This document shows, in pieces, positions 24,780 through 25,942 of a stretch of DNA of 64,000 nt (its first letter is position 1; every line of letters starts with the position of its first letter). A program made the translations under genes and the position numbers. Under the pieces are notes generated by a model that had not been told where the DNA came from, searched no databases, and was given only the letters and a program-made list of their open reading frames with translations. This stretch comes from Sphingobacteriia bacterium (GTDB taxonomy: Bacteria; Bacteroidota; Bacteroidia; Chitinophagales; Chitinophagaceae): assembly GCA_947456855.1 (NCBI GenBank), contig CANGTR010000003.1:1-64000 (forward strand), read 5' to 3'.

Positions 24780-25541
24780 TTAACCAATCTTTATGCCAGC
24801 AACACCATGCACTGCATGGCTAATTTCCTTAATAAGGCTGAGGTCTTTTTCTATAGCATTGCCAACAACAATTACATCTGCACCAGCTTTGCAATTTAAA
24901 TAGGCTTTTTCTGGCTCTGTAATGCCGCCACCAACAATCAATGGCACTTCTATATGTTTGGCAACTTTTTCAATCATTAATTCATTGATAGGGCGTTTGG
25001 CTCCACTTCCTGCATCCATGTAAATTAATTTCATTCCCAGCATTTCTCCTGCCATTGCAGTACACATGGCTATCTCGTTTTTATCTGCCGGAATAGGCGT
25101 TGCATTGGAGATATAGGAGACCGTAGTTGGCGCTCCTCCATCAATCACCATATATCCAGTTGGCATAATTTCCAGGCCGCTCTTTTTTACAAAAGGGGCA
25201 CTGATTACATGCTGCCCAATGAGTAATTCAGGATTCCTGCCCGATATCAAAGACAAATACAGTAATGCATCTGCATATTTGCTTACCTGCGAAGGTGAAC
25301 CAGGAAACAATATTACAGGAATATTGCAGCTTGCTTTAATCTGCTGTATACATTCATCCAAATGACTGGAAATCACCAAGCTTCCTCCCACAAAAAAATA
25401 ATCTACTTTGGCATCAATACCCAATGAAACCAATTGTTCTATAGCAGCAGTATCTACCTTGTCTGGATCGATTAGTACAGCAAATGATTTTTTTCCCAGT
25501 TGCTTGCGTTCGGTAAATTGATGATATATTGCTTGCTTCAT
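24780..25541 (-). CDS. pcrB: Geranylgeranylglyceryl/heptaprenylglyceryl phosphate synthase
   Basis: The 253-residue TIM-barrel prenyltransferase joins a polyprenyl diphosphate to glycerol 1-phosphate. Motifs are FAVLIDPDKVD, FVGGSLVISSHLDECI, VILFPGSPSQVSKYADALLY, KLIYMDAGSGAKRPIN and the phosphate loop PLIVGGGITEPEKA with VVGNAIEKD. Close relatives occur widely in Bacteroidota and in archaea, where the product is an ether-lipid precursor. The bacterial physiological product is less clear. It is the first gene of a two-gene operon with the TrpF-like gene. Confidence 0.92.
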   Translation of the reverse strand: MKQAIYHQFTERKQLGKKSFAVLIDPDKVDTAAIEQLVSLGIDAKVDYFFVGGSLVISSHLDECIQQIKASCNIPVILFPGSPSQVSKYADALLYLSLISGRNPELLIGQHVISAPFVKKSGLEIMPTGYMVIDGGAPTTVSYISNATPIPADKNEIAMCTAMAGEMLGMKLIYMDAGSGAKRPINELMIEKVAKHIEVPLIVGGGITEPEKAYLNCKAGADVIVVGNAIEKDLSLIKEISHAVHGVAGIKIG

Positions 25542-25942
25542 TCAGTAAATTATTCTACGCCTTGCAAAAATGCAGAAAAGTTTCCGTTTAAAGCAAGATT
25601 TTGACCCCTGTTTCGGGATTTAACCATTTTCTGCAATTTGTTTAGCCTAAAATGCCCTTTTTTGGGTGTATAGCTAGTTTAAGTTGATTTTGTTTAAGGT
25701 TTTTTGTGCATTTATTGAACTATTAATCAACCAAAATTTTGTACCCATTTTTTTCTACACTTGTGCATAATCGAGCAAATTCAATCAGGATTTGAGGTAC
25801 GAATTTATTCACCCTCCTTATCCACAACCTGTGCATATTTACGGTGTTGAATTATGAAAATGGAAAGATATTTTCGTCAACCGCCTTAACAAAGTATCGT
25901 TAAAAGGGAACCCATTAAAAAAGTTAAAAACGTTACTGCCTT
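25542..25942. other. Intergenic region before nrdJ
   Basis: The 401 bases separate divergent pcrB and nrdJ. They hold a cluster of DnaA-box-like sequences (25705-25838) and AT-rich runs. I see no cobalamin riboswitch, although the downstream enzyme is B12-dependent; no GCCACTG-type B12 box is present. No tRNA or small gene is evident. Confidence 0.6.
25762..25838. promoter_or_regulatory. DnaA-box-like cluster upstream of nrdJ
   Basis: Against TTATNCACA there are exact matches at 25762-25770 (minus strand, TTATGCACA) and 25818-25826 (plus strand, TTATCCACA). One-mismatch sites lie at 25805-25813 (TTATTCACC) and 25830-25838 (minus strand, ATATGCACA). A weaker one lies at 25705-25713. Four sites within 77 bases suggests DnaA control of the reductase promoter, as known for nrdAB in E. 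coli; binding here is inference. Confidence 0.5.

Follow-up and report, generated by a model that had tools for sequence, protein, structure and literature searches.

A probable DnaA-binding array at the promoter of the class II ribonucleotide reductase gene nrdJ in Sediminibacterium

Organization of the pcrB–nrdJ intergenic region

The window described here, a stretch of 64,000 nucleotides, belongs to a freshwater Sediminibacterium genome (Chitinophagaceae), the assembly of which comprises 2.48 Mb in 132 contigs. It carries nrdJ, encoding a class II ribonucleotide reductase (RNR) with the class II N-terminal domain, the barrel, and the TSCPD domain, as well as a divergently transcribed gene of the PcrB family. 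The AT-rich intergenic region between these two genes contains four DnaA boxes that span 77 bp (25762-25838) and are followed by a putative promoter. The features of this locus are listed below.

24780-25541, minus strand: PcrB-family (geranylgeranylglyceryl phosphate synthase-like) gene, pcrB, Pfam PF01884; divergent neighbor of nrdJ
25705-25713, minus strand: weak box-like site, AAATGCACA, two mismatches
25762-25770, minus strand: DnaA box 3, TTATGCACA, exact, inverted, at offset -56 from box 1
25775-25799, plus strand: conserved middle block, GCAAATTCAATCAGGATTTGAGGTA, between box 3 and box 2
25805-25813, plus strand: DnaA box 2, TTATTCACC, one mismatch, at offset -13 from box 1
25818-25826, plus strand: DnaA box 1, TTATCCACA, exact, the most conserved of the boxes
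25830-25838, minus strand: DnaA box 4, ATATGCACA, one mismatch, inverted, facing box 1
25847-25849, plus strand: putative -33 element, TTG (Bacteroidota -33 consensus TTTG, PMC7366714)
25869-25876, plus strand: putative -7 element, TATTTTCG, 19 bp after TTG (Bacteroidota -7 consensus TAnnTTTG, PMC9723704, PMC7366714)
25943-29311, plus strand: nrdJ, class II (adenosylcobalamin-dependent) ribonucleotide reductase, 1122 aa, Pfam PF08471, PF02867, and PF12637

An earlier, sequence-only reading of this DNA had reported two exact boxes and two with one mismatch within 77 bases, flanked by divergent genes, and both statements are borne out. The weaker upstream box that it had also listed does exist, at 25705-25713, but lies outside and upstream of the conserved footprint described below.

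Rarity of the cluster

In the whole window, 65 box-like sites were observed compared to 104 expected by chance, so the cluster upstream of nrdJ is not due to a general enrichment. The 401-bp intergenic region attains a cluster score of 6 within an 80-bp span, a value reached by none of 2000 dinucleotide shuffles of the same region, for which the maximum was 3. Null samples consisted of 449 kb of the own genome, with 95 intergenic regions, and of 1.51 Mb of the complete genome of a relative, G017, with 231 such regions; in both of them the nrdJ region ranks first and oriC, located as described below, ranks second. When the 1.51 Mb of G017 are divided into 150-bp spans, the nrdJ region scores 7 and oriC 6, with all other clusters at 4 or less. 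The sequence-only reading had named random intergenic regions and the true oriC as the yardsticks of box density; by the former, nothing comparable was found in the sampled regions except oriC, and by the latter, the nrdJ array ranks above oriC in the own-genome sample as well as in G017. The own genome contains 68 exact boxes, and three pairs of them are at most 100 bp apart, at nrdJ, in the mraZ promoter, and on contig C96, the last pair being set aside as it is found inside a coding region.

Location of oriC and properties of its boxes

Among the relatives from this genus group, G017 and G010 have genomes that consist of a single contig. In G017, the cumulative GC skew, as sampled, peaks near 0.75 Mb and reaches its minimum at about 2.28-2.295 Mb, with nrdJ positioned at 1.573 Mb. 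The minimum holds a 480-bp AT-rich intergenic region (2294098-2294577, at the end of locus L217) located between nadA and a ppiD-like gene, the latter identified by its SurA_N/PPIC domains, with polA close by, and this region includes nine boxes that are exact or have one mismatch. In G010, the GC skew changes its sign near 0.95 Mb, at the same ppiD–nadA pair, and nrdJ is found at 1.753 Mb. The distance between oriC and nrdJ is 0.72 Mb in G017 and 0.80 Mb in G010, and dnaA is away from oriC in both of these complete genomes. The chromosomal oriC of Sediminibacterium, as judged from sequence, would thus be the ppiD–nadA intergenic region, near polA and not at dnaA. This region is conserved in the genus. 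The copy in the own genome, on contig C28 (L296, 2075-2460), carries degenerate boxes only, with no exact box, and consequently the strongest array of this genome is not at its origin.

The boxes at nrdJ match the DnaA box of the organism's own oriC. The variants ATATACACA, TTATCCCCA, and TTTTCCACA are common to both sites, and a position weight matrix (PWM) constructed from the oriC boxes places nrdJ first in G017, with a score of 14.0, followed by oriC itself (10.4) and by the next region at 7.8. In the own-genome sample the same matrix places nrdJ third, after the stretches from mraZ (contig C5) and from C96; this sample is biased against nrdJ, since these two stretches had been chosen for their exact pairs. 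The reverse test, with a matrix derived from the nrdJ boxes, is weaker: oriC takes third place in G017 and fourth place in the sample of the own genome. The DnaA protein of this organism (477 aa) is canonical, with a GRDHTT motif in domain IV, and this domain matches the structure of DnaA domain IV in PDB 1j1v.

Conservation and geometry of the array

An anchorable box is present in 73 of 74 nrdJ upstream regions from Chitinophagaceae, in most cases with about 100-150 bp between it and the start codon. In a footprint alignment of 72 distinct sequences from this family, anchored on box 1 and with positions 2-4 read without a consensus filter, each of the latter positions converges on a TTATNCACA-like consensus. 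Box 1 itself reads TTATCCACA in 35 of these sequences and TTTTCCACA in another 25. The consensus at offset -13 (box 2) is T-T/A-A-T-C/T-C-A-C-A, with no more than two mismatches in about 35-36 of the 72 sequences; at offset -56 (box 3, inverted) it is T-T-A/T-T-C/T-C-A/C-C-A (about 40-43 of 72), and at offset +12 (box 4, inverted) it is A-T-A-T-N-A/C-A-C-A (62 of 72). Control windows contain sites of this quality in 1, 10, 11, and 11 of the 72 sequences, the comparison window for box 2 being the one with a single occurrence. Conservation upstream of nrdJ in relatives, which the sequence-only reading had proposed to check, is thus found in 72 distinct Chitinophagaceae sequences; outside this family it is weaker.

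Many relatives retain a single box at one mismatch or less, with the remaining boxes degenerate. The spacing between boxes 1 and 4 differs among relatives, from 1 to 4 bp, and appears as N1-N3 before CTGT in the core pattern TCCACA-N1-3-CTGTKNATAT; such variation is expected of independently bound boxes and not of the operator of a rigid dimer. The core pattern is present in 50 of 61 genomes of the genus, nearly always in a single copy and at nrdJ, as well as in 60 of 200 genomes of the wider family. At 20 of 30 wider-family places that were retrieved, nrdJ follows directly downstream, and nearly all of these 20 share the same conserved promoter block.

Second copies of the promoter element, approximately 100 bp in length, are found at places other than nrdJ in L280 (G034:C11) and L282 (G075:C90), one before an ORF of 50 aa that contains cysteines and the other before a tRNA-Ser near a tyrosine-recombinase-like ORF. 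These copies were perhaps captured by mobile elements. In L396 (G232:C212), a pcrB-like ORF is accompanied by the element and by the TATTTTCG promoter, with no nrdJ detected downstream, and a recent loss of nrdJ is possible there. A viral reservoir of the element was considered and rejected, as the core pattern occurs in 87 viral stretches, a number estimated to be near random expectation given a pattern of 16 bases and the collection searched, and none of the viral matches tested has nrdJ downstream.

The nrdJ promoter and the middle block

The array is positioned directly upstream of a putative Bacteroidota-type promoter, TTG-N19-TATTTTCG, which is conserved in the 72 sequences at a near-constant distance from box 1. 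The transcription start site is predicted near 25883, and boxes 2, 1, and 4 would then be centered near -74, -61, and -49, respectively. The middle block is as conserved as the boxes, with high column information in the 72 sequences, and its best match, in both the sampled own genome and G017, is the nrdJ promoter, the next matches being far weaker. Such conservation has no explanation by DnaA and counts against an account based on DnaA only; this block probably binds a second factor.

Other regulators and class I nrdB

NrdR boxes, acaCwAtATaTwGtg, act on all RNR classes including class II (PMC4009431), and share with the nrdJ array the character of conserved repeated elements in RNR promoters, although the motif differs and an NrdR protein was not found. 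No match to the NrdR family (TIGR00244) is present in the own genome or in 60 relatives (61 genomes of the group), nor above the curated cut-off in any of 198 high-quality Bacteroidota, while the control gave matches in 9 of 14 named genomes. NrdR therefore appears to be missing across Bacteroidota, in disagreement with a review according to which nearly all eubacteria encode nrdR (PMC4009431). A reading of the array as part of an NrdR regulon was rejected in view of this result. Control of nrdJ by a riboswitch was likewise rejected: in a search for a cobalamin riboswitch upstream of nrdJ, no Rfam family reached the gathering threshold in the window.

Class I nrdB was considered in 12 genomes from the order, including four of the genus group, and its upstream regions contain 16 boxes compared to 4.7 expected, a number reached in none of 200 shuffles. 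No such boxes are found upstream of nrdB in three genomes that also carry nrdJ (G017, G010, and G021). The genomes with box-rich nrdB (loci within L284-L295) have, in this small sample, no nrdJ match beyond the class I gene.

Weighing of the alternative explanations

The rarity of the cluster, its conservation, and the oriC-like character of its boxes all support the proposal of the sequence-only reading that DnaA couples nucleotide supply to replication at nrdJ, and we regard it as likely that the boxes form a promoter-proximal DnaA-binding array regulating this gene. The same reading is favored by the absence of NrdR and of a known riboswitch, by the box enrichment at class I nrdB in relatives from the order, and by a canonical DnaA domain IV. 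Against it count, besides the middle block, the degenerate boxes of many relatives, an own oriC lacking exact boxes, the weaker reverse matrix test, the near-palindrome of boxes 1 and 4, and the loss of conservation strength beyond Chitinophagaceae. Nine-base motifs with one mismatch are frequent, and AT-rich DNA might bring several of them together by chance, but the result of the shuffles, the first rank among 95 and among 231 intergenic regions, and the retention of the array in 72 distinct sequences leave this explanation with a negligible probability; indeed, it is already refuted by the conservation. A replication origin was the second option of the earlier reading, prompted by an AT-rich region with divergent genes on either side. 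Together with the DnaA-box cluster, this setting might also suggest an origin that is secondary or ancient, but it is not sufficient by itself. GC skew, which that reading had suggested inspecting, has its minimum or sign change at ppiD–nadA and not at nrdJ in the two complete relatives, no sustained skew switch is found within the window, and nrdJ is 0.72-0.80 Mb away from an oriC identified both by skew and by its conserved box cluster. An origin at nrdJ was accordingly rejected as extremely improbable.

It also seems unlikely, if to a lesser degree, that the array is an operator of another Bacteroidota transcription factor, a stand-in for NrdR with a motif that merely resembles the DnaA box. 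Boxes 1 and 4 create an imperfect inverted repeat such as a dimeric factor would bind (core near-palindrome ATCCACA-N3-TGTKGAT), and this repeat is the most conserved part of the array; the pattern is almost confined to nrdJ, and some regulator is to be expected where NrdR is absent. Against such an operator, the gap between its arms ranges from 1 to 4 bp, the same consensus recurs in boxes 2 and 3 as separate single boxes of different orientation, oriC is the only comparable cluster in both genomes, and the oriC-derived matrix places nrdJ first in G017. The datA and DARS loci of E. coli are compact intergenic DnaA-box clusters outside oriC, the function of which also needs IHF or Fis sites. 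A locus of this kind, serving the titration or reactivation of DnaA and situated in the nrdJ promoter region by chance, would agree with an array that outscores the organism's own oriC and with the second copies of the element that two relatives carry at other places. We consider it quite improbable, since the array keeps, in contrast to datA and DARS, a near-constant distance to a single promoter and is located at nrdJ across the family, while its chromosomal distance from dnaA varies.

Proposed mechanism and comparison with known systems

For regulation of nrdJ by DnaA, we infer the occupancy of the boxes, the sign of regulation, and its timing in the cell cycle. Boxes 2, 1, and 4 would constitute the compact core of the array, adjoining the -33 element on its upstream side, while the inverted box 3 lies farther out. 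DnaA would fill box 1 as the strongest site, and the degenerate flanking boxes would be filled cooperatively as active DnaA rises. At intermediate levels of DnaA, activation of RNA polymerase is the likeliest outcome, favored by the position of the boxes, which is close to the core promoter on its upstream side and free of overlap with it. A filament of DnaA-ATP extending over the promoter might then switch the gene to repression, as in E. coli nrdAB, and dNTP supply would follow the DnaA cycle.

E. coli nrdAB is co-regulated by Fis and IciA. Several putative DnaA boxes close to an RNR core promoter, a feature of control of the nrdAB type, are found at nrdJ. In the part of PMC8203912 considered here, nrdAB is described as activated by DnaA-ADP or low DnaA-ATP and repressed by high DnaA-ATP, with strong and weaker boxes mixed in the promoter of the housekeeping RNR, as they are at nrdJ, and a coupling of dNTP supply to the state of DnaA is presumed for both. 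By this analogy, DnaA probably activates nrdJ. The nrdJ array differs in its Bacteroidota sigma promoter, in having four box positions, of which 3 and 2 are separated by a conserved block, and in the absence of NrdR from the phylum sample; because the target is class II (PF08471) and not class I, it should be regarded as a variant of the nrdAB type and not as the same system. The same part of PMC8203912 mentions DnaA control of RNR genes as proposed in B. subtilis and C. crescentus, thus in other phyla and, as here, outside E. coli; it names nrdAB for C. crescentus, refers to no class II target, and states that detailed analysis is lacking. Titles and abstracts of the open-access literature revealed no description of a class II reductase controlled by DnaA, although such an absence does not prove novelty; the sequence-only reading had likewise known of no described case for a class II enzyme in Bacteroidota.

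DnaA control of RNR has been well studied only for the class I nrdAB of E. coli. If the present reading is true, a link between dNTP supply and the initiator has appeared repeatedly, in different phyla and on different RNR classes, and the nrdJ promoter offers a concrete, mutable system for the question of how Bacteroidota, with their little-known cell-cycle control, match precursor supply to replication. We can tentatively speculate that Bacteroidota lack NrdR throughout and that DnaA is their general regulator of dNTP synthesis, with arrays at whichever RNR is the housekeeping one, that is, class II nrdJ in Chitinophagaceae and class I nrdBA in relatives from the order without nrdJ.

Other sites with DnaA boxes

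In L031, L034, L036, L038, and L039, single ATATCCACA or TTTTCCACA sites precede the DnaA domain match by about 100-130 bp and are compatible with weak autoregulation. As a co-target, dnaA was rejected, since its boxes are single, have one mismatch, and are variably placed. In two genomes of one genus (L389 and L390), ATATCCACA is accompanied by an inverted ATATACACA about 90 bp upstream of rpsL-rpsG-like ORFs. The region upstream of mraZ, a gene of the division/cell-wall cluster (L415 2912-3097, G000:C5; divergent from queA), includes two exact TTATCCACA boxes 91 bp apart, together with TTATACACT; these boxes adjoin GTGGGA-like repeats, and this region is a possible second target of DnaA.
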